Positions 3,409 to 41,429 of a DNA stretch of 64,000 nucleotides are shown piece by piece; the first letter of the stretch is position 1, and each line of letters begins with the position of its first letter. Location: positions 248,001 through 312,000 of the forward strand of contig CALULI010000006.1 in assembly GCA_944321455.1 (NCBI GenBank), written 5' to 3'. The stretch is from an uncultured Eggerthellaceae bacterium. Its GTDB lineage: Bacteria > Actinomycetota > Coriobacteriia > Coriobacteriales > Eggerthellaceae. The position numbers and the translations under genes are program-made. Below the pieces are notes generated by a model. That model did not search any database and was not told the DNA's origin. It saw nothing but the letters and a program-made list of their open reading frames with translations.

Positions 3409-4160
3409 AAGAACGACTTGGTGCGATTGTGTTGCGGATTATTGATAACTTCCTGAGCAGGACCCTCTTCCACGATAACGCCGCCATCCATGAACACCAC
3501 GCGATCAGACACGTCACGGGCAAACGTCATTTCGTGCGTCACGATAACCATAGTCATGTGTTCTTCAGCAAGGGAGCGAATAACCTTGAGAACTTCTTGA
3601 GTAAGTTCAGGATCAAGCGCACTGGTTGGTTCATCAAAGAAAAGGATCTGTGGATTCAGGCACAGCGCACGCGCAATAGCAACACGTTGCTGCTGACCAC
3701 CCGAAAGCTCACAAGGGTAGTTGTCTTCTTTGCCCTCAAGCCCCATCTGCGCTAAAAGCTTGCGCGCCTGCGCTTCAACTTCGCCCTTTTCGCGCTTTTG
3801 CACGGCAATAGGTGCATCCATCACATTGCGAAGCGCTGAATAGTGAGGGAACAGGTTGAAGTTCTGGAACACCAAACCAAAACGCTGACGTGCTGCTTGG
3901 TCTGCTTCTTTACCTTTATAAACCGCAACGCCCTGATCATTGTTTTCCGCAACGACGACATCCCCGTAGCGCAAGGAGCCACCTTCGAAGCGCTCAAGCA
4001 ATGTGGCGCAACGCAGCAAGGTTGACTTACCCGATCCTGAAGGACCAATGATGGAAACCACTTCGCCTGGATGAACCGCAAGCGAAATATCCTTCAGCAC
4101 TTCGGTGTTATTAAATCTTTTCTGAATATGATCAAGGCTGATAACTGCTTGTGTGGTCAT
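3378..4160 (-). CDS. Polar amino-acid ABC transporter, ATP-binding subunit
   Basis: ATPase of an amino-acid importer (GlnQ/HisP type). Walker A is GPSGSGKST (near residue 41), the signature is [15 protein letters not shown], Walker B is [14 protein letters not shown], and the switch histidine is in VIVTHEM. The ATG at 4160 is preferred over a TTG two codons upstream because it follows AAGGACGGGG. It is the last gene of a three-gene set (binding protein, permease, ATPase), 15 bases after the permease. An extra stretch near residues 75-90 ([18 protein letters not shown]) lies between Walker A and the Q-loop. Substrate cannot be told from sequence. Confidence 0.93.
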
Positions 4161-4175
4161 GAACAATCCCCGTCC

Positions 4176-4829
4176 TTAATCGTGATAGTAGCTCAAGCGC
4201 TTTTCGATGCGTGCGATGATAGCTTCCACCACAAAGGTGAACACCCAATAAAACGCCGCCGCAACAATAAACGCTGTCAAGACGCCTTGCGAAGAAACAA
4301 TTGCACGTGCCGTGGTGAAGAGTTCCGCCACGCCAATCGTAAAGGCAAGGGACGTATCCTTAACCAACACGATGATTTCGTTGCCCATTGCAGGAATGAT
4401 GCGCTTAATAACCTGAGGCATGATAATTTTCATGAACGTCTGAGCGCGTGAATAGCCCAAGACTTGCGCGGCTTCGCGCTGGCCTACGGGAATAGACTGA
4501 ATGCCGCTTCGGTAGATTTCTGCGAAATAGGCAGAGTAATTCAAAACGAAGGCAACAATGGTCGCCCCGAATTTCCATTCGGTGCTTAACTGAACACCAA
4601 ACACATACCATGGCGCGAAGTAAATAAACATCAGCTGCAGCATTAACGGCGTGCCGCGCATGATAGAAATATAGACGCGCGTCAGAGCTGATAGCACCGT
4701 AAAGCGCGACATGCGGCACAGGGCAACAAGGACACCCAAAGGCAGAGCGCCTACCAGTGTGCAGGCAAAAATCTGCAGGGTGACCACAAAACCCTCAGTC
4801 AACATAGAGAGCATGGTGACAAAATCCAT
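4176..4829 (-). CDS. Polar amino-acid ABC transporter, permease subunit
   Basis: Inner-membrane subunit of the HisM/GlnP family (217 residues, about five membrane helices). The family loop that docks on the ATPase is visible as EAAQVLGYSRAQTFMKIIMPQVIKRIIPAMGNE (motif EAA---G, near residues 138-160). The ATG at 4829 has a GGAGGG ribosome site. Only one permease gene is present, so the pore is probably a homodimer. Confidence 0.93.
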   Translation of the reverse strand: MDFVTMLSMLTEGFVVTLQIFACTLVGALPLGVLVALCRMSRFTVLSALTRVYISIMRGTPLMLQLMFIYFAPWYVFGVQLSTEWKFGATIVAFVLNYSAYFAEIYRSGIQSIPVGQREAAQVLGYSRAQTFMKIIMPQVIKRIIPAMGNEIIVLVKDTSLAFTIGVAELFTTARAIVSSQGVLTAFIVAAAFYWVFTFVVEAIIARIEKRLSYYHD

Positions 4830-4883
4830 TGCTCGCTTCCCTCCTCAAAGCGTCCCATTAAGGCAATAGGACGTCATAACACG

Positions 4884-5976: not shown

Positions 5977-6006
5977 TTGCCCACCGTAAGCTGTGCGCTA
6001 TACAAT
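5977..6006 (+). promoter_or_regulatory. Likely promoter giving a leaderless acetyltransferase mRNA
   Basis: TTGCCC (5977-5982), 18 bases, TACAAT (6001-6006). Transcription would start about base 6013, next to the ATG at 6014. No ribosome site stands in front of that ATG, so a leaderless message is plausible; actinobacteria use many. Confidence 0.5.
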
Positions 6007-6013
6007 TCGCATC

Positions 6014-6616
6014 ATGAATACTTCAGCACATATCAGAGTCGCCACAATCGAAGATGCTCCTGAAATCTTAGCGGTATATGCTCCCTATGTGGAAACTACT
6101 GCTGTCACGTTTGAGCTTACCGTCCCTGATCAGGAAACCTTTACGGACCGTGTTCGTAATACGCTTCAGCGCTTCCCCTATTTGGTAGCTGAAGACGAAT
6201 CGGGCATTGTTGGTTTCACCTATGCTTCACCCTATCGTCCGCGCGAAGCATACGTCCGCACGATTGAAACATCAATCTACGTTAAGCAAGGATATAAGGG
6301 CAAAGGACTTGGCCGACGCCTTTATAACGCTCTTGCTGCTGTTTTGAGCATGCAAAACGTTTACAACATGAACGCCTGCATTGCCTACATTGAGCCTGAA
6401 GATGAATATGTCACTCGCGCAAGCGTCCATTTTCATGAGCGTGTCGGATTTAGGGTTGTGGGCCATTTCACCCGATGCAGCCGCAAATTTGATCGCTGGT
6501 ACGACGTGGTCTGGATGGAGCGCTTGCTTGGCGATCACGATGATAATCCAGGAGATTTTATTCCGTTTCCTGAACTGGACCGTGCCGAAGTGGACAAGGT
6601 GCTCGAACAGCAATAG
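6014..6616 (+). CDS. GNAT family N-acetyltransferase (phosphinothricin-acetyltransferase-like)
   Basis: Transfers an acetyl group from acetyl-CoA to an amine. The protein reads as one GNAT domain: an N-terminal IRVATIEDAPEILAVYAPYV, the sub-group feature TAVTFELTVPD, and the acetyl-CoA loop YKGKGLGRRLYNAL (near residue 95-108), then FHERVGFRVVGHFTRCSRKF. This order matches the Pat/YncA branch, whose members acetylate methionine sulfone-like or phosphinothricin-like compounds; the true substrate is unknown. Start: ATG 6014 fits the promoter next to it; an in-frame GTG at 5993 is the alternative and has an AAGAGG 16 bases upstream. Confidence 0.88.
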   Translation: MNTSAHIRVATIEDAPEILAVYAPYVETTAVTFELTVPDQETFTDRVRNTLQRFPYLVAEDESGIVGFTYASPYRPREAYVRTIETSIYVKQGYKGKGLGRRLYNALAAVLSMQNVYNMNACIAYIEPEDEYVTRASVHFHERVGFRVVGHFTRCSRKFDRWYDVVWMERLLGDHDDNPGDFIPFPELDRAEVDKVLEQQ

Positions 6617-6682
6617 AGCTTTTGTCCTATAAGCCGCATTTTGAAGTCAAATCTTCCAGGACAAACGATTAAGTGAAAAAAC

Positions 6683-6716
6683 AAAGGCCTGATAGATATT
6701 TCTATCAGGCCTTTTT
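6683..6716. terminator. Bidirectional terminator
   Basis: A perfect 14-base stem (6683-6696 with 6701-6714) has a 4-base loop and runs of T on both strands. It lies between the convergent acetyltransferase gene and the Pro/Ala-rich protein gene and can stop both. Confidence 0.85.
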
Positions 6717-6744
6717 CAGGTTTTCGTTAGATGATAACGGGGCG

Positions 6745-6783
6745 CCTTTATGTGTCTTTACTTAATTCAAAGACACATAAAGG
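6745..6783. repeat. Second perfect hairpin in the same convergent gap
   Basis: A 15-base perfect inverted repeat (6745-6759 and 6769-6783) with a 9-base loop. It lacks a T run, so it is not a plain terminator. It would protect the 3' end of the message from 7303 or pause transcription. Confidence 0.7.
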
Positions 6784-6811
6784 TCTGCAGAACCAAACGC
6801 ACGCGTTTGGC

Positions 6812-7303
6812 CTACATCATGCTCATCAAAACGACAAAGTTAAACAGCCACACAATAACGCTGAGCGCTAAGCCGATGATACCCATGATCATGCCTGGCT
6901 TTGACTTTGATGCAGGACCGTAAATGCGCTGATCCTTACGAGCCAAAACGATAGCGATGATACCAGCGATAACACCAACCAGCGGAATGAAAAGAGCACC
7001 CAAGATAGCAACGATGCCCAAAATAAGCGTTGGAACCATGCTTGGTGCAGGTGCGCCAGGCTGTGGCTGCTGCGCTTGCTGACCCTGGTAAGGAGCCTGA
7101 TTTGGCTGAGCGCCAGGCTGCTGTGGTTGCTGAGGTGCAGCTTGTGGTGCAGCCTGTGGAGCAGCCTGAGGTGCAGCTTGTGGAGCTGCCTGAGGTGCAG
7201 CCTGTGGAGCTGGTGCAGGAGCTGGTGCAGGAGCTGGTGCAGGAGCTGGTGCTGGCTGAGCAGCATTCTCTGCCTGAGGGGTGTTGTTCTGTTCTTCTGC
7301 CAT
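6812..7303 (-). CDS. Pro/Ala/Gln-rich small membrane protein (DUF4190-like)
   Basis: A 163-residue protein in two parts. Residues 1-90 are low complexity: (PA) dipeptides, then six AAPQ-type units, then Gln/Pro/Gly. Residues 90-163 hold two membrane helices (LILGIVAILGALFIPLVGVI and MIMGIIGLALSVIVWLF) joined by a short polar loop with KDQRIYG, the layout of DUF4190-type proteins. Function is unknown; the family is common in actinobacteria next to many kinds of genes. The N-terminal tail is predicted to be disordered and to face the cytoplasm or wall. The ATG at 7303 follows AAGGAGA. Confidence 0.75.
   Translation of the reverse strand: MAEEQNNTPQAENAAQPAPAPAPAPAPAPAPAPQAAPQAAPQAAPQAAPQAAPQAAPQQPQQPGAQPNQAPYQGQQAQQPQPGAPAPSMVPTLILGIVAILGALFIPLVGVIAGIIAIVLARKDQRIYGPASKSKPGMIMGIIGLALSVIVWLFNFVVLMSMM
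7116..7250. repeat. Coding low-complexity tandem repeat
   Basis: Tandem short units (Gly/Ala-type GTGCAGCCTGTGGAG and GGAGCTGGTGCA steps) encode AAPQ and PA repeats. The unit lengths are multiples of three, so copy-number change would alter length without breaking the frame. Confidence 0.8.
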
Positions 7304-7393
7304 GATATATCTCCTTATGCCTAATGGCTTATAGATCTTTGACCGTGTGACTATACCATATCACCAGCCAAATTATTCCCGTATCTAAGAAGC

Positions 7394-8770
7394 TTAATTA
7401 CTTTTAACTTTTGCGATCACCACTACAAACATCAGCACCGCAAATAGCGCCGAAACGCCAAAGGCGCACTGGTAACCAAGTGCAGCAATGCCGCTGATCG
7501 TAGGCACCACTGTGATCATAAACACCATCAACGCGGTACCCATGGATGCCCCTGCTTGACGCACGGCGGTGCTAAATGACGATCCGTCGGTCATAATCTG
7601 GTGCGGCAATTCTTCAAGAGACCACGACGTCAACGGACCAATCAAACCTGAAACTCCCGACGCGCGTAAACTCTGCATTGCTACAACCGCCCAAAACGGC
7701 GTATTTTCATCAACAAACACCATGGCAACCGAGCCGCCAACCAGCGCGATCGAAAACACAACAACAACGGGCCGAATGCCTATTTTGTCCGTCAACACAC
7801 CCGCAAGCGGATTAAAGATAAGCGCTGCAATCGTGCCTGGTAAAAGCGCAAGTCCTGCTTCAAAGGCCGTTCCACCGCACAGTCCTTCAATATAGAGCGG
7901 AATAATAAGGGTGATACCTAAAAAGCTGGTGAACAAAAAAGTTGTTGCCCAAAATCCAATTACGTATTTGCGCGACGCAAAAATATCCATGCTAATAAGC
8001 GGATGATCTACGCGTTTTTGTCGCGCAATAAACCCTATCAAAGCAACAACGCCCACAATAATGGGTACCCATACGAAGGGTTCGGTAAGGGAAAAACTTG
8101 AAGCATTTGAAAAGCCCAACAGCAGGCAACCAAAGGCAAACGCGGACAGGAGCAAAGAAAGCACATCCAAGCGCGCCTGCGCATCAGACGTGCCGCTATC
8201 TTTAATAAGAAAGGCTCCTGCGATAATCAGCAACAGCGCTGCCGCCGAAAGGGCAACGAAAAAGCTTCGCCATCCTGCCGCATCAATCATCCAGCCACCA
8301 ATGGTAGGACCAATGTTGGGCGCAAACCCCATGGCAATGCCAGAGACACCCATAGCCGTAGCTTGCTGACCAGGAGGAAATGACACCATGATGACGCTCA
8401 TCATCAACGGCATCGTAATGCCTGCTGCCATAGCCTGAAAGACACGCCCGATGATAAGTGTGACAAAGTCCTGCGCCAGCATGTCAATAACAGCGCCAAC
8501 AAACATGAGAGAAAAAGCAGCAAGCGCAACCTGCTTTTTCGTAAAACGGCGCGATAGATACGTCACCGCAGGAACGGTCACGCCCAGCACCAACATATAC
8601 AGCGTTGTTACCCATTGACCCATACCAACGCTGACGCCGAAATCGGTAGCAATGCCTGAAAACATAGCGTTGAGCGCTGTTTGAGACAGATTGCCAAAGC
8701 ATGATCCCAGGATAACCAGCGCAACCAAGAGCAAAACTGATCGTGGTACTGTGCTCTGCGCTTTTTCCAT
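7394..8770 (-). CDS. MFS multidrug exporter, DHA2 family
   Basis: Proton-driven exporter with 14 predicted membrane helices. The sequence has the DHA2 opening (LNAMFSGIATDFGVSVGMGQWVTTLYML), motif A (SRRFTKKQV) and motif C (GFAPNIGPTIGGWMID, antiporter motif). Drug specificity cannot be read. The ATG at 8770 has GGAG at good distance; a second ATG stands directly before it at 8773. The upstream open frame to 8953 covers a repeat-rich intergenic stretch and is not expected to be translated. Transcribed away from yhdT. Confidence 0.9.
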   Translation of the reverse strand: MEKAQSTVPRSVLLLVALVILGSCFGNLSQTALNAMFSGIATDFGVSVGMGQWVTTLYMLVLGVTVPAVTYLSRRFTKKQVALAAFSLMFVGAVIDMLAQDFVTLIIGRVFQAMAAGITMPLMMSVIMVSFPPGQQATAMGVSGIAMGFAPNIGPTIGGWMIDAAGWRSFFVALSAAALLLIIAGAFLIKDSGTSDAQARLDVLSLLLSAFAFGCLLLGFSNASSFSLTEPFVWVPIIVGVVALIGFIARQKRVDHPLISMDIFASRKYVIGFWATTFLFTSFLGITLIIPLYIEGLCGGTAFEAGLALLPGTIAALIFNPLAGVLTDKIGIRPVVVVFSIALVGGSVAMVFVDENTPFWAVVAMQSLRASGVSGLIGPLTSWSLEELPHQIMTDGSSFSTAVRQAGASMGTALMVFMITVVPTISGIAALGYQCAFGVSALFAVLMFVVVIAKVKSN

Positions 8771-8779
8771 CATGCTCCG

Positions 8780-8905
8780 TTCTTTCCCGCGCGTGTTCGC
8801 TGCACTATTCGTTCGCCGCAATGCGTCCGCCGTATCGCGCATCCACCGCAATGCAAGCTCGCCGTGCTGCGTGTTCAACGTACTTTCTTCTTGTATCGTC
8901 ACACA
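8780..8905. repeat. Degenerate ~16-base repeats upstream of the MFS gene
   Basis: Six or so loose copies of a CGTTCGCCGCAATG-type unit, stepping by roughly 14-18 bases, fill the start of the divergent gap (8771-9048). Apart from these I see no gene or clear signal in the gap. Confidence 0.5.
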
Positions 8906-9048
8906 AGTGCGTACTAACTCGCCGCTCAAACAGGCAAATGGCGCAAAATCCAATCTTGTCCCCGCTTGCTTCTATTTCATGCGCTACCATGCACGCAACA
9001 GCACTAACCATGCATTTAACTACGCATGGTGCACTAAAGGACAACAAC

Positions 9049-34698: not shown

Positions 34699-35500
34699 AT
34701 GAACACCTATTCATCTCAAAACCCTGAAGAACCAATTGATGTTGTTCCCGAAGTTTTGCCCCTTGATGACGAAGGTGCTTCGCAGGCTTCTTCAGCAACT
34801 TCGCATGCCACAACAGGCAACACGCATACGGCAACAAATGCCACCTACACCACATCGTCAAGCGCTCCTAAGGCTGAACCAACTGCTGCGCAAAAGGCAA
34901 AGGGCGTAGCTCAGATGGCTGCGGGCGCTGCCATAGGCGTAGCAGGCATTCCGCTGCTGGTGCTACCAGGACCAGGTGCTGTTGCCATAGTTGGTGGAGC
35001 TGCTTTAGCCAGCAAAGGTCAGCGCACGTATTCGGGCCGCGAAGCCACCGCTGTTGAAGAAAAGATTGATGCCGCTGCAGCAAAATTGGGCGAAGTCGCC
35101 AAAGAACAGGCAAAGCAAACAGCACACGTAGCAGCTCAAAAAGCTCCTGAAGTCGCGCGTGATATTGCTACCAAAGCCCCGCAGGCAGCAAAAGTAGTTG
35201 CCAGCAAAACCTCTGACGTGGCAAAAGTGGTTGCTGCTAAAGCTCCACAGGCAGCAAAAACTGTTGCTGCTAAAGCGCCTGACGTGGCCAAAGTGGTAGC
35301 GGAAAAAGCACCTCTTGCGGCTCAAACCGTTGCGGACAAGGCGCCCAAAGTAGCGAAAAAAAGTTGCTCAGGAAGCGCCTGTTATTGCGCACAAAGCAGC
35401 CAAAGACGCAGCACGCGTCGCAGGTCCTGTTGCAAAAAGCGCTGCCCAATCAGCACGCAAGGTAGCGGAAAAAGTGACTCACTCCATCTTCTCCAAGTAG
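34699..35500 (+). pseudogene. PGPG membrane protein with hendecad repeats, interrupted by a one-base frameshift
   Basis: N-terminal Ser/Thr/Ala-rich tail (1-60), a hydrophobic hairpin with LLVLPGPGAVAIVGGAAL (about 84-110, PGPGW-like), then 11-residue repeats from residue 148 such as KAPQAAKVVAS and KAPDVAKVVAE. At 35356-35362 a run of seven A leads, in the written frame, to SCSGSACYC and a stop at 35583. Dropping one A lets the repeats go on (units beginning VAQEAPV...) to a stop at 35498-35500, ten units in total. So the intact gene ends at 35500. The seven-A run could be a sequencing error, a phase switch or a slippage site. The hendecads predict a long amphipathic helix or coiled coil, as in LEA-type proteins. 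No function is assigned. Confidence 0.72.
35140..35470 (+). repeat. 33-base tandem repeat encoding 11-residue hendecads
   Basis: Ten imperfect units, each beginning with Lys/Glu-Ala-Pro in most cases. Units are in phase with the protein until the seven-A run. Confidence 0.75.
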
Positions 35501-37374
35501 CTCTTCATGGAGTAGTGCGTAATATCGGAACGATTAATAACGCCCACAATCTTGCCATCCTCAAGAACGGGCGCCTTCTTTAAGTGGTTGTCGCCCAAGA
35601 CACGGCAGATTTCATCAAGATCATCGTGAATATCAACGCCAATGATGCCCTTGGTAGAAATGTCGGTAATCTTCATTTTCATCAGGCCATCAAGCTTTTC
35701 ATCAAAGCCTGTATCATCGCGCTGAGCGCGCATGATCATGACAACAGGATCTACATAAATCTGTGAGCGCTTTGACAGGTGACGTAAAATGTCACCATCA
35801 GAAATAAAGCCTGTTGGAACACCCTTCGAGCTCACCACAGGTGCTGCACTGATGTTCTTTTCAACAAACAGACGAACCGCATCAAGCACCGTTGCGCTGG
35901 TAGGCAGCGTGTACACATCACGCTTCATGATGGATTCAACCAAGGACTTCTTTTCGCCCTCAGGGTCAGCGCTCTCACGGTCGCTAGGCTTGTCTTTGAC
36001 GAAAGCAACGGTCAGCACCAAACCAACCAAGCACAGCACGCCCGCTGCAAAGAAGGCTGCGTTGATGCCCGTGATGTTAGCGTGCAAACTGTCCGTGCCG
36101 CCCGTTACCAAACCAGCCGTTACCAGCGTAGAAACCGAAACCAACACGGCGGTACCCAGAGAACCCGACACCTGACGGAAGGTGTTGTTAACCGACGTGC
36201 CGTGATTGAGCAATTCGTCATCAAGCGCGTTCATGGCCCACGTGGTAATAGGCATGTTGATCAGCGAAAGCGAGAACATACGTACCGCAAAGAGAACGGT
36301 CAGGAAAACAATGTCAATGCTGTCGCCAAGCGTTGCGAATATAAAGGTGGAAATGGTCAGAATAATCATGCCAACCAAGCTCAACGCGCGCGGGCCATGC
36401 TTGTCGAACAAACGACCCGCAATAGGACCCATGATACCCATGAGAACCGCGCCTGGCAAAATTACCAAACCAGAAACAGTTGCCGAATAGCCCAGCAAGG
36501 ACTGCAAATAAATAGGAATCAAAATGCCTGCTGCCAGCAGTGATGCCTGAACCAGCATGCCAATGATGGTACCAATCAGGAACTTTCGATTCGCCAGTAC
36601 GCGAACCTCCAGCATAGGATTTTCCATCTTCAACTGACGACGGAAGAAGAAGAACAAAATCACCGCACCAACAGCAGCTGAAATCAGCGCTTCAGCGCTA
36701 ATGCCATAGGAACCAATGATACTGAAGCCATAGAGTAGCGTGCCAAAGCCAAGCGAGGACAAAATAACTGATGGCTTATCAAGCGTAACGCCCCTGCTTT
36801 CTTTGTTGGCTTTCTCCAGAGCAAAGATGGAAGCAATTACCACGATAAGAGCCAGCGCCACAATAGCAAAGAACATGTCGCGCCAGCTGTAGTGGTCAAT
36901 CACTAAACCTGCAACGGTAGGACCAATGGCAGGCGCAAACGCAATAACAATACCGAAGATGCCCATGGCCGTGCCGCGACGTTCCACGGGAAACATCAAC
37001 ATCAGCACCGTCTGAACCATTGGCATCAGAATGCCCGCTCCCGCTGCTTGCGCCAAACGGCCAACTAGCAGAATGGGGAAATTAGGCGCCAGGCCGCACA
37101 TTAACGAACCCAGCGCAAACAGGCCCATCGAAAAGATAAACAGAATACGCGTTGAAAAACGGTCAATCAAAAAGGCCGTGATGGGGATCATGATGGCATT
37201 AACCAACGTAAAGCCCGTGGTTAGCCATTGCGCCGTTGCCGCATCAACGCTCATTTCTGCCATGATGGGCGGCAGCGCTGGTGTCACAATAGTCTGATTG
37301 AGAATCGTAACAAAGGTGCCGAAGACCAATATAACGAGGGTGATTTTTTGCTTCTGTGTTAATCCCCAGTCCAC
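35479..37374 (-). CDS. DHA2-type MFS transporter fused to a C-terminal CBS pair (copy A)
   Basis: A 631-residue fusion. Residues 1-470 form a 14-helix DHA2 exporter (TPALPPIMAEMSVDAATAQWL; antiporter motif FAPAIGPTVAGLVID; helix-joining DRFSTRIL). Residues 485-631 hold two CBS domains (MKRDVYTLPTSATVLDAVRLF... and ITDISTKGIIGVDIHDDLDEI...). CBS pairs bind adenine nucleotides and gate other channels and transporters; fusion to DHA2 is not a standard layout. GTG 37374 follows GAAGG. Lies 29 bases after copy B and overlaps the hendecad gene's true end by 22 bases. Confidence 0.9.
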   Translation of the reverse strand: MDWGLTQKQKITLVILVFGTFVTILNQTIVTPALPPIMAEMSVDAATAQWLTTGFTLVNAIMIPITAFLIDRFSTRILFIFSMGLFALGSLMCGLAPNFPILLVGRLAQAAGAGILMPMVQTVLMLMFPVERRGTAMGIFGIVIAFAPAIGPTVAGLVIDHYSWRDMFFAIVALALIVVIASIFALEKANKESRGVTLDKPSVILSSLGFGTLLYGFSIIGSYGISAEALISAAVGAVILFFFFRRQLKMENPMLEVRVLANRKFLIGTIIGMLVQASLLAAGILIPIYLQSLLGYSATVSGLVILPGAVLMGIMGPIAGRLFDKHGPRALSLVGMIILTISTFIFATLGDSIDIVFLTVLFAVRMFSLSLINMPITTWAMNALDDELLNHGTSVNNTFRQVSGSLGTAVLVSVSTLVTAGLVTGGTDSLHANITGINAAFFAAGVLCLVGLVLTVAFVKDKPSDRESADPEGEKKSLVESIMKRDVYTLPTSATVLDAVRLFVEKNISAAPVVSSKGVPTGFISDGDILRHLSKRSQIYVDPVVMIMRAQRDDTGFDEKLDGLMKMKITDISTKGIIGVDIHDDLDEICRVLGDNHLKKAPVLEDGKIVGVINRSDITHYSMKSYLEKME

Positions 37375-37403
37375 GTGTACCTTCTTTCGCGTGTGCTATG
37401 CAT

Positions 37404-39356
37404 TTATTGTTGCTGAGTCTGTTTAGCTTGTTGTGCTTCCTTAGCAATATAGTCCTGAACCACTTCGTCTTTCATTACATCAGACAAAAAGTCCATTAAA
37501 TCATGACGATGAAGCGTACCAACCAACTTGCCGTCCTCTATAACGGGAAGCTGCTTTAAGCGCTTTTCGGCCAACATATTACATGCCTCTTCAAACGAAG
37601 CATTAGGTTGAATACCCACAACGTTTTTCGTTGCAACCTTAAGCGCACTAATCTGAGACATACGTGCAACACGCTTGCGAATATCTTCGTTATCAAGATA
37701 ACGAACAACGGTGATACCATTACCGCCACTGATAACGCTTGTTTCGTCGCTGAAGAAGCGCAAGATATCGCTGTTTGAAATAAAGCCACATACGTGCGAT
37801 TCGTCATCCACCAAGATGGCGCCACTGGCATCATTGTCTGACAAAACCTGCGTTGCTTCATTCATGGTGGCGTTAACAGGAATGGTAAGCGGATTGCTGT
37901 TCATAACTTCTGCTACACAGTATGAACCTTCCTTTTTCTGAGCAGGAGCGCCTGCGTTAGGTACGGGATCACTTTTACGGTTGCGAACAAAGCAGACCAC
38001 CAGAATAAGAACAATGGTCATCAAAACCGCTACAACACCAAACGACATGTGATATCCCGCAAAAATCAAATCGACGCCTTCCTTGCCAACAGCCAGCGAA
38101 GAGCCAACAGCAGAAAACGACATAATGAGCGCAGTACCTAAAGAACCACCAACCTGGTTAACCGTATTGGTAACTGATGTTGCATGCTGAACCAGATCGT
38201 TATCAAGCGAATTGACGCCCCAGGTGTTGATAGGCGTGGTCAAGAATTGCAAGCTGACGCCGTTCAAAACATTAGCAAGAATGACAAGCCACACAGGACT
38301 GGATACGCCGTAGAGCACCATGCCAATGCCACTTAAGAAGCCCACAATGGCACCGAGAATGGTGATCATGCGAACACCATGGCGGTCAAACATCTTGCCT
38401 GCCCACAAACCTGCAAGAGCACCCAAGACTGCGCCAGGCAAGGTGATCAAACCAGAAATGGTAGCGGAATAGCCCAAAACATTCTGAATGTAGAGCGGCA
38501 TCAAAACGCCAAGACCAATCATGGTGGCCTGCAAGAACATAACCGTTACCGCGCCAGTACGATAACGACGGCTCTTCATGATTTCCAAACGCAGCAGTGG
38601 CTCATCAATAGAGAACTGGCGGTGAGCAAACAGCGCCAAGAAAATAAGACCGAAGACAATCAAGCCAATGCATACTTCAATATGATCGCTAGATGCAAAC
38701 GATGAAAGCCCGTAGAGCAGCGGCGCCAAACCCAGCGTTGAAAAGATAACCGAGATTACGTCAAAGCGTGAGCGGGGAAAGCCCTCATAGTTTTCAAGCG
38801 AGCGAAGTGCCAGAAGAATAACCACAACGCTCAAAACGACCACTACGCAGAACAGGGCACGCCAACCAATGAGGTCTACCAACAGACCACCAACGGTAGG
38901 GCCGATAGCAGGAGCAAAGCCAATAACCAAACCAACAATGCCCATAGCAGCGCCGCGGCTTTCGCGCGGAAACGAAAGAAGGATGAGCGAAATAACCATA
39001 GCCATCATGACGCCCGTTGCCATAGCCTGCATGATGCGGCCCAGCAAAATAAACGCGAACGCAGGGGCAATGGCTGCTACCAAGCTGCCCATAGCAAACA
39101 AACTCATGGCGCCCACAAACAAAACGCGCGTGCTAAAGCGCCCCATAAACCAAGCAGCCAGCGGAATGATAATGGCTTCTACCAACGCATAGGCACTGGT
39201 CAGCCACTGAACCGTTGTTGCATCAACGTTTAAATTGGCCATAATGGAAGGCAGCGCTGGCGACAACAACGTCTGGTTGAGCACTACCAATACCGCGCCC
39301 ATCAAAAGGGTGATGACCATTTTCTTTTGTTCTTTTGAAAGTCCTAGAGACTCCAT
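37404..39356 (-). CDS. DHA2-type MFS transporter fused to a C-terminal CBS pair (copy B)
   Basis: 650 residues, same layout as copy A: 14 helices (LSPALPSIMANLNVDATTVQWL; FAPAIGPTVGGLLVDLIGW) and a CBS pair at about 490-640 (VMNSNPLTIPVNATMNEATQVL; VVGIQPNASFEEACNMLAEK), ending in a Gln/Ala/Lys-rich tail. The two copies are clearly paralogous but diverged, so the duplication is old. Divergent from a MarR gene across paired palindromes, which makes MarR the likely controller of the pair. Start ATG 39356. Confidence 0.9.
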   Translation of the reverse strand: MESLGLSKEQKKMVITLLMGAVLVVLNQTLLSPALPSIMANLNVDATTVQWLTSAYALVEAIIIPLAAWFMGRFSTRVLFVGAMSLFAMGSLVAAIAPAFAFILLGRIMQAMATGVMMAMVISLILLSFPRESRGAAMGIVGLVIGFAPAIGPTVGGLLVDLIGWRALFCVVVVLSVVVILLALRSLENYEGFPRSRFDVISVIFSTLGLAPLLYGLSSFASSDHIEVCIGLIVFGLIFLALFAHRQFSIDEPLLRLEIMKSRRYRTGAVTVMFLQATMIGLGVLMPLYIQNVLGYSATISGLITLPGAVLGALAGLWAGKMFDRHGVRMITILGAIVGFLSGIGMVLYGVSSPVWLVILANVLNGVSLQFLTTPINTWGVNSLDNDLVQHATSVTNTVNQVGGSLGTALIMSFSAVGSSLAVGKEGVDLIFAGYHMSFGVVAVLMTIVLILVVCFVRNRKSDPVPNAGAPAQKKEGSYCVAEVMNSNPLTIPVNATMNEATQVLSDNDASGAILVDDESHVCGFISNSDILRFFSDETSVISGGNGITVVRYLDNEDIRKRVARMSQISALKVATKNVVGIQPNASFEEACNMLAEKRLKQLPVIEDGKLVGTLHRHDLMDFLSDVMKDEVVQDYIAKEAQQAKQTQQQ

Positions 39357-39425
39357 GCACGCTCTCTTTCTGTATCTCTTATGTGTGTATCGCCACAGTA
39401 ATAAGCAATAAGCACTAAAAATTAC

Positions 39426-39456
39426 TTGACGATAATCAATGTTTGACGATAATCAA
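39426..39456. promoter_or_regulatory. Paired MarR-type operators between the MFS-CBS pair and marR
   Basis: TTGACGATAATCAA occurs twice (39426-39439 and 39443-39456), 17 bases apart. Each has palindromic ends TTGA/TCAA. Two sites in register suggest cooperative binding between divergent promoters. Confidence 0.8.
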
Positions 39457-39501
39457 GTATATTAACGCCACAAAGGATGTCAACCTGAATCGGGAGAATC
39501 T

Positions 39502-39978
39502 ATGATTTCCGAAGAAAATGTTCGCGATATTTTACACGCTACCCTGCTCTACAACGAGCTGTATAAAAAGACGCTTCAGGGATCGTTTCCTGCCTGCATA
39601 AAAACAAAAACACAGATGGATATTTTGCTTGTTCTGTATGCCCGCGGTGCTATGAACATGCGCACGCTTAGTTCTCACTTGAGTATTGCTCCCGAACAGA
39701 CCACCCGCGCCATCAAAACTTTGAGCGAAAACGATTTGGTGGTCAGCCAGCGCAATCCCGACAACCTTCGTGAGGTTATTGCTCAGGTAACCAGCAAGGG
39801 CAAGCAGCTTATTAAGGATCATATGGAAGACTTACACCAGCGCCTGGAAGCCTGTTTGTTTGATCTTGATGAAAAAGAATTAGAGGCCTTCGAAAAGGCC
39901 TCTCATGCTGCTGTTGATATTTTAAGCACGACCAATTTTGGATCAGGCGTTATTCACGACAGAACAACCAACCAATAA
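39502..39978 (+). CDS. MarR family regulator
   Basis: A 158-residue winged helix protein. ARGAMNMRTLSSHLSIAPEQTTRAIKTLSENDLVV is the recognition region, with the wing in SQRNPDNLREVIAQVTSKG. Divergent from the two MFS-CBS genes; the twin palindromes in front suggest that it represses them until a ligand, perhaps one of the exported compounds, binds. Confidence 0.87.
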   Translation: MISEENVRDILHATLLYNELYKKTLQGSFPACIKTKTQMDILLVLYARGAMNMRTLSSHLSIAPEQTTRAIKTLSENDLVVSQRNPDNLREVIAQVTSKGKQLIKDHMEDLHQRLEACLFDLDEKELEAFEKASHAAVDILSTTNFGSGVIHDRTTNQ

Positions 39979-39984
39979 AGCGTT

Positions 39985-40045
39985 GTAAACCACACACGAT
40001 CCACGCAAGGCGCGCCACGACCTACGCGACACGCTTCACGCTATG
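39985..40045. repeat. Loose CACGC-rich repeat between marR and corC-like genes
   Basis: Degenerate units around CCACGC/TACGCGACACGC repeat every 12-16 bases in the convergent gap. Confidence 0.35.
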
Positions 40046-41429
40046 AACGGTCTTCCTTTTTGTCTTGCTTACGATCCGAACGCTTATCCTGCTTCTTGGA
40101 ATCTTCGTCGTTTGCGTCTTCTTCAGGCACCCAATCTTCAATTTCGACACCAATCTTGTCGATGCGCAAATTATCCATCACCTTTGCTACCAGGTGATAC
40201 TTCTTGCGGTCGTGATACAAGTCAATGGAGTCGCCCTCTTCAGGAATCTTGTCCAGCAGATCAAGCATCAAACCGCCTGCTGTTTCATAGTCAAGAATAG
40301 GCACGGGCTCAAAGCCTATGAATTCGACCAGCTGGTCAACGGGCAAGGAACCATCAACTTCGTAGTTGCCTTCAGAAAGCTTGAGAATTTCATCTAGGTC
40401 ATCATGCAAGTATTCGTCTTCAACACGGCCGATAATCTGCTCAACAATGTCACTCATCGTAACGATGCCTGACGTGCCACCATGTTCGTCAACAACAACC
40501 GCAATCTTGGTGCGGTTTTCCTGCAAAACCTGCAACAGCTTAGACAGCGAAATACTCTCAGGCACTGGATGAATTGTGCGAATCTTCAAGTCCTTCATGG
40601 AGCTACCAGGAGGAAGCAGGTAGGCATCCTTTACGTGCACGAAACCAATAATGTTGTCTTTATCCTCCTTGAACACAGGGTAACGCGTGAATTTGTTCTT
40701 ACCCATGAAATCAAGGTTAGTTTCAAGATCATCGTCGTAATCAACGCACATCAATTCGGTACGAGGAGTCATGATTGACTTAGCGTCCTTGTCGTCCAAG
40801 TCAAAGATGTTGTCCATGTATTCGTACTGTTCCTGCTCAATTGAGCCGCTTTCAGCGCTTTCTTCAAGCAGGATCTTTATTTCTTCTTCGGTGTATGCGT
40901 CATGTTCTTTAGAAACATCGTGGCCCGTGATGCGCATAATGCCGTTGGTCAACGCATTAAACAGCACCATGATGGGGTAGGTCAGCATGTAGAACGCATG
41001 CAGCGGTGCTGCCGTATGAAGTGCATAGCTTTCCGTATTCAAAATAGCCATGGACTTTGGCACCAACTCACCAATAACAACGTGCAACGCCGTCATGATG
41101 AAGTAACCAATTGCTACCGAAATTGCCGTGACCGCAGTGTCGGGCAAGTTAAGCGCAGAAAATACCGGATGGAACAGCGCCGAAATTGCTGGTTCACCCA
41201 ACCAACCTAAGGCCAGAGATGCCAACGTAATACCAAGCTGACATGCCGAAAGATACGCATTAACGTTTTCGGCAATGTGTGCGGCACGCTTAGCGCCTGG
41301 CTTGTTTTCTTCTACTAAAAGCTCAATCTGAGATTTGCGAACGCGCACCAAAGAAAATTCAGCAATAACGAAAAACGCATTCATCAAAAGAAAGACAACA
41401 ACTAACAGTAAACTCACCCAGATGGGCAT
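40041..41429 (-). CDS. HlyC/CorC family membrane protein (CNNM type) with CBS pair
   Basis: A 462-residue protein: an N-terminal DUF21 domain with four helices (to about 190), a CBS pair (about 210-335; MTPRTELMCVDYDDDLE and HGGTSGIVTMSDIVEQI), then a CorC_HlyC domain (about 350-435) and a Lys/Asp-rich tail. Family members affect magnesium or cobalt export. GAGGAG site. The upstream gap of 507 bases is treated separately. Confidence 0.92.
   Translation of the reverse strand: MPIWVSLLLVVVFLLMNAFFVIAEFSLVRVRKSQIELLVEENKPGAKRAAHIAENVNAYLSACQLGITLASLALGWLGEPAISALFHPVFSALNLPDTAVTAISVAIGYFIMTALHVVIGELVPKSMAILNTESYALHTAAPLHAFYMLTYPIMVLFNALTNGIMRITGHDVSKEHDAYTEEEIKILLEESAESGSIEQEQYEYMDNIFDLDDKDAKSIMTPRTELMCVDYDDDLETNLDFMGKNKFTRYPVFKEDKDNIIGFVHVKDAYLLPPGSSMKDLKIRTIHPVPESISLSKLLQVLQENRTKIAVVVDEHGGTSGIVTMSDIVEQIIGRVEDEYLHDDLDEILKLSEGNYEVDGSLPVDQLVEFIGFEPVPILDYETAGGLMLDLLDKIPEEGDSIDLYHDRKKYHLVAKVMDNLRIDKIGVEIEDWVPEEDANDEDSKKQDKRSDRKQDKKEDRS

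Follow-up and report, generated by a model that had tools for sequence, protein, structure and literature searches.

Two adjacent genes of the window (the whole stretch of 64,000 nucleotides that was analysed), here referred to as A and B, encode major facilitator superfamily (MFS) exporters of the DHA2/EmrB type that carry a pair of CBS domains at their C-terminus. This architecture is established, and it agrees with an earlier note on this DNA, which had described tandem DHA2-plus-CBS genes with an adjacent MarR gene; the positions of the genes and, by Pfam and NCBIfam, their domains were confirmed. With moderate confidence, we further propose that the tail of these exporters senses adenylates and that expression of B and A is under the control of the MarR-family regulator. 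The features of the two exporter genes are the following:

35479..37374, minus strand: gene A, DHA2/EmrB-type MFS exporter with a C-terminal CBS pair, 631 aa, GTG start, clade I; 14 TM helices at residues about 7-458 and CBS pair at residues about 478-630 (AlphaFold2 model, Pfam)
35482..35967, minus strand: CBS pair of A, residues 470-631, with GFISDGD (522-528) in CBS1 and GVINRSD (611-617) in CBS2
37404..39356, minus strand: gene B, DHA2/EmrB-type MFS exporter with a CBS pair, 650 aa, clade II
37446..37943, minus strand: CBS pair of B, with GFISNSD in CBS1 and GTLHRHD in CBS2

B is located upstream of A on the same strand, with 29 bp between them. It is probably the first gene of a B-A operon, in which the two genes would be co-transcribed. 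Pfam detects MFS_1 in A (E 1.8e-60) and in B (E 3.1e-55), as well as two CBS stretches (PF00571) in each (E 1.3e-22 in A and 1.2e-22 in B), and both whole proteins pass the NCBIfam cut-off of 230.2 bits for TIGR00711 (DHA2/EmrB), with 353.6 bits for A and 280.9 bits for B. The DUF21/CNNM membrane domain was not detected by Pfam in A or B, which exhibit MFS_1 instead. In the AlphaFold2 model of A (mean pLDDT 87.7), 14 long helices end at residue 458 and are followed by the CBS pair. As the tail follows an even number of helices, the CBS pair should face the cytosol, assuming the usual DHA2 topology. The nearest solved folds of the exporter are EmrB, QacA, and EfpA; with the model of A as Foldseek query, no solved exporter matched over the full length, the best being EmrB (TM 0.65 on the query). 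Elsewhere in the window, a DHA2-like exporter of 519 aa without CBS tail is encoded on the minus strand (7394-8953). An Ala/Lys-repeat ORF on the plus strand (34699-35500) changes frame where seven A follow one another (35356-35362), which could reflect a sequencing indel or real slippage. Skipping one base prolongs the repeat up to a stop codon at position 35500, giving 266 aa; without this correction, the frame extends to 35583 and overlaps the end of gene A.

With regard to the distribution of the fusion, at least one match spanning both the exporter and the CBS parts is present in 51 of the 61 sampled Eggerthellaceae genomes, and 55 of the 61 contain a strong match. The present genome encodes eight proteins with CBS matches, four of which are MFS-CBS fusions: A, B, L009:4295-6190, and L010:3486-5399. 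The named relatives, i.e., Gordonibacter, Eggerthella, Slackia, Paraeggerthella, and Adlercreutzia/Enterorhabdus, all belong to the Eggerthellaceae. In a class-wide sample, the matches listed comprise Eggerthellaceae and three from one other family of the order, two of which extend into the CBS part. In a phylum-wide sample, most of the best relatives of the tail beyond the Eggerthellaceae are stand-alone CBS proteins of small size (~150-180 aa). The closest CBS-less exporter sequences are mostly Bacillota pumps. CBS domains fused to MFS transporters are already noted in the available part of a 2023 review (PMC10710835), which cites a survey of C-terminal MFS fusions (Willson et al. 2019) and names no characterised member there. 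Our literature search for a characterised MFS-CBS protein or Eggerthellaceae exporter returned nothing specific and no report on the function of the tail. The MFS-CBS proteins are a known kind, which is uncharacterised in the literature found. The earlier description of the architecture as rare, and as impossible to match to a described system, does not hold for a fusion that is found family-wide, with two further copies in the same genome.

Based on a comparison of the exporter domains of 98 non-redundant fusions, we distinguished clade I (n=37, including A), clade II (n=40, including B and the L009 and L010 fusions), and a distant set III (n=21). A first FastTree tree had suggested that the CBS tail was recruited several times independently, an idea that we abandoned, as a better model joins clades I and II (support 82) and the AU test does not reject that all fusions arose once (p = 0.29). 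A and B share 36% identity over their full length and 24% in their tails. They are diverged paralogs, as proposed earlier, in the sense that they are members of two old clades; a recent local duplication is ruled out by the trees and by the 36% identity. In one 19-kb region of a relative (L179, on contig C7 of genome G009), ~12 kb of sequence holds three fusions, one from clade I, one from clade II, and one from the distant set III. In Paraeggerthella (L019), a clade I exporter without CBS domains (3413-4855) precedes a clade I fusion (5998-7926) by 1.1 kb and offers a natural tail-less comparison for it.

The pairing of exporter and CBS domains also exists as separate genes. In eight genomes, the gene downstream of a CBS-less exporter encodes a CBS pair of its own, which is related to the tail. 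The spacing between the two genes ranges from -37 to +14 bp in the seven genomes in which both ends are resolved, the CBS reading frame of the eighth case (L211) being called too long for its spacing to be given, and a 4-bp overlap, typical of coupled translation, is observed in three of these seven. Pfam confirmed the CBS pair in both cases scanned (L185 and L208). As the pairing occurs both fused and separate, it provides independent support for a CBS pair that works with the exporter.

In an alignment of 106 tails covering both CBS domains, the ribose-site motif G-h-h-S/T-x-x-D of CBS1 is invariant (106/106, A and B included). D528 and a serine or threonine at position 525 (A numbering) are each present in all 106 tails, and the segment G522-F-I-S-D-G-D528 is nearly fixed; the adenine motif h-y-y'-h'-P is present in most tails. 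The loss of the binding residues from all homologs, which the earlier note had named as a way to refute its reading, is therefore not what is seen. The equivalent ribose motif contacts ribose in CNNM proteins, and CorC and MgtE have it as well; together with the adenine motif, it determines ATP/AMP binding (PMC6429129). CBS2 is more variable, with S..N in most of clade II and N..D in clade I. Its ribose motif is degenerate, with an asparagine at the S/T place in clade I and a histidine in B, and in the split form it is degenerate as well, mostly reading GVVRRAT. Judging from these motifs, each chain would have at most one universal canonical nucleotide site. B is atypical, as the proline of the CBS1 adenine motif is absent in addition to the CBS2 histidine. 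The model of the tail (pLDDT 87.5) adopts the CBS fold, and its best fold matches include AcuB with AMP, ADP, ATP, or Ap4A and CBSX2 with AMP. AcuB is an energy-charge sensor in Bacillus (PMC13121692).

Regarding the identity of the ligand, a diadenylate cyclase (DAC) domain was detected in none of 41 Eggerthellaceae genomes (the present genome and 40 relatives, G000-G040), with the control positive in 11 of 14. Since this domain was not found, cyclic di-AMP is an unlikely ligand of the tail and was discarded as a candidate, which narrows the nucleotide-like messenger of the earlier note by this one molecule. This negative result across all 41 sampled genomes is also of interest for cyclic di-AMP biology.

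CBS pairs commonly dimerise. The tail could accordingly be a dimerisation or stability module, or it could sense another adenosyl ligand, such as SAM, MTA, NADH, or Ap4A, rather than the energy state. The fold matches include both MJ0100 with SAM/MTA and AcuB with Ap4A, and the degenerate CBS2 sites are consistent with such a role. However, a purely structural module would have no need for the ribose-binding aspartate and the serine/threonine that are invariant in the 106 tails, and we consider this reading unlikely.

The neighbourhood of the clade I genes raises another explanation, in which the tail senses Mg2+ or Mg-ATP, or acts with a neighbouring CNNM/CorC Mg2+ transporter, so that clade I would belong to a magnesium/membrane-homeostasis locus and not to a drug-defence locus. 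The gene concerned in the window is:

40041..41429, minus strand: CNNM/CorC gene (DUF21, CBS pair, and CorC_HlyC by Pfam), with MarR and B lying between it and A

A CNNM/CorC gene is located within 3 kb of 15 of the 37 clade I fusions, compared to 0 of the 60 clade II/III fusions outside the window (Fisher p = 6e-8, a significance that is overstated because the related genomes are not independent). The arrangements differ, with same-strand pairs at gaps of 0, 4, 26, and 48 bp and divergent pairs at gaps from 2 bp. CNNM proteins are themselves regulated through their CBS domains by Mg-ATP (PMC10710835). Nevertheless, 11 clade I fusions adjoin a TetR gene of one type instead, nearly always divergent, and another 11 have neither TetR nor CNNM; shared synteny between related genomes accounts for part of the count, and clades II and III lack the CNNM link. 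We consider this magnesium-linked explanation improbable. The CNNM gene of the window shares its strand with A, and in a congener (L125) the A-type gene follows CNNM by 4 bp; insertion of a MarR-B unit between these two genes is the simplest reading of the two genomes. In four relatives (L158 and L169 and, by the start of the sequence, L166 and L176), the A-type fusion is preceded, at a distance of 24-135 bp, by a gene whose start resembles that of an AMP-binding ligase. In L158 and L169, the two cases scanned, this gene additionally encodes an enolase-superfamily domain (AMP-binding + MR_MLE) and resembles MenE-MenC of menaquinone synthesis.

That A and B form an obligate heterodimer and are adjacent for this reason, as suggested earlier, is highly improbable: the genes lie side by side on one strand, 29 bp apart, but this adjacency of clades I and II is observed only here among the 98 fusions, A orthologs are usually single, the two types are 7.6 kb apart in a congener, and the identity is only 36% (24% in the tails).

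For the proposed transcriptional level of control, the window contains a regulator gene, putative operators, and predicted promoters:

39502..39978, plus strand: MarR-family regulator, 158 aa, divergent from B (PF01047, E 1.4e-11; 44.5 bits for a gathering score of 24.6 bits)
39426..39439: putative operator copy 1, TTGACGATAATCAA, a TTGA-N6-TCAA palindrome overlapping the predicted -35 of the marR promoter
39443..39456: putative operator copy 2, TTGACGATAATCAA, abutting the predicted -10 and covering the start region of the B promoter, and overlapping the predicted -10 of marR
39456..39483, minus strand: predicted sigma-70 promoter of B-A, TTGACA-16-TATACT, a consensus match of 11/12
39426..39453, plus strand: predicted sigma-70 promoter of marR, TTGACG-16-GATAAT, a consensus match of 10/12

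Only two exact copies of TTGACGATAATCAA exist in the 1.55-Mb genome, both at this locus and 17 bp apart from start to start. A MarR of the same type is found upstream of 4 of the 98 fusions, the other three being 30-37% identical to that of the window. The TTGA-N6-TCAA motif, which has a background of 0.025 per kb, occurs upstream of exactly these four MarR-linked fusions among the 98, in 2, 3, 2, and 1 copies. MarR control is well supported, and this exact coincidence makes autoregulated repression by MarR, as read from the sequence, the best-supported part of the mechanism. The earlier proposal that the MarR gene and its twin sites control expression is strengthened by this match across species. 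MarR covers the promoter region of B and, through B, probably the B-A operon. As a regulator of the entire fusion family it was rejected, since it is found at 4 of the 98 fusions and no TTGA-N6-TCAA site is present upstream of the L009 and L010 fusions of the same genome.

For the complete mechanism, we infer the nucleotide binding, the gating, the direction and substrate of transport, and the binding of MarR and its inducer as follows. A and B would be proton-coupled exporters of small amphipathic compounds. Their cytosolic Bateman (CBS-pair) module would bind adenine nucleotides, i.e., AMP, ADP, ATP, or Mg-ATP, but not cyclic di-AMP, and would adjust transport to the adenylate state of the cell. 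The divergent MarR repressor would bind the twin operators overlapping its own promoter and that of B, and its release by an inducer would add control at the level of transcription, as a second layer acting on B and, via read-through, on A. The DHA2/EmrB membership, the EmrB/QacA/EfpA folds, the CBS1 motif, the AcuB/CBSX2 folds of the tail, the eight two-gene genomes, the DAC result, and the operators at exactly the four MarR-linked fusions argue for this mechanism; the degenerate CBS2, the missing CBS1 adenine proline of B, and the possibility of other CBS ligands (SAM/MTA in MJ0100) or of dimerisation only argue against it. A more far-reaching version, in which an entire superfamily of Eggerthellaceae exporters (at least three MFS clades and the two-gene version) is under direct allosteric adenylate control, possibly tied to Mg2+ via the CNNM neighbour, so that energy charge switches drug efflux at the protein level, is conceivable, though we find it rather doubtful.

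If the exporters are energy-gated, the tail would allow gut anaerobes to slow drug efflux quickly and at the level of the protein, in a family that includes Eggerthella and Gordonibacter. This lineage constitutes a test bed, as it has both fused and two-gene forms, the nucleotide-site motif is invariant, a cyclic di-AMP synthase was not recognised, and the MarR operator is compact. The ligand of the tail is now easy to test.

Several known systems share parts of this module. The LmrB/EmrB-type DHA2 drug:H+ antiporters (TIGR00711; LmrB, EmrB, QacA, EfpA) have the 14-TM exporter domain in common with A and B, but the solved relatives found all lack a CBS pair. The MFS transporters with C-terminal CBS domains mentioned in PMC10710835, citing Willson et al. 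2019, exhibit the same overall architecture. AcuB of Bacillus/Geobacillus resembles the tail in its CBS-pair fold and in having a ribose-binding aspartate, which AcuB carries in each CBS domain; in contrast to the tail, to which it is ~24% identical, it is a stand-alone, soluble protein that acts on the deacetylase AcuC and has no transporter. In CNNM/CorC, MgtE, and OpuA, a cytosolic CBS pair regulates a membrane transporter, as proposed for A and B, although their membrane domains (DUF21, MgtE, and ABC, respectively) are unrelated to the MFS domain; the ligand of OpuA is cyclic di-AMP, for which no recognisable synthase was found in the 41 Eggerthellaceae genomes. Finally, divergent MarR-efflux pump modules exhibit the same arrangement as here, with a divergent regulator gene and palindromic operators over both predicted promoters, whereas the pump of the present module carries a CBS tail.
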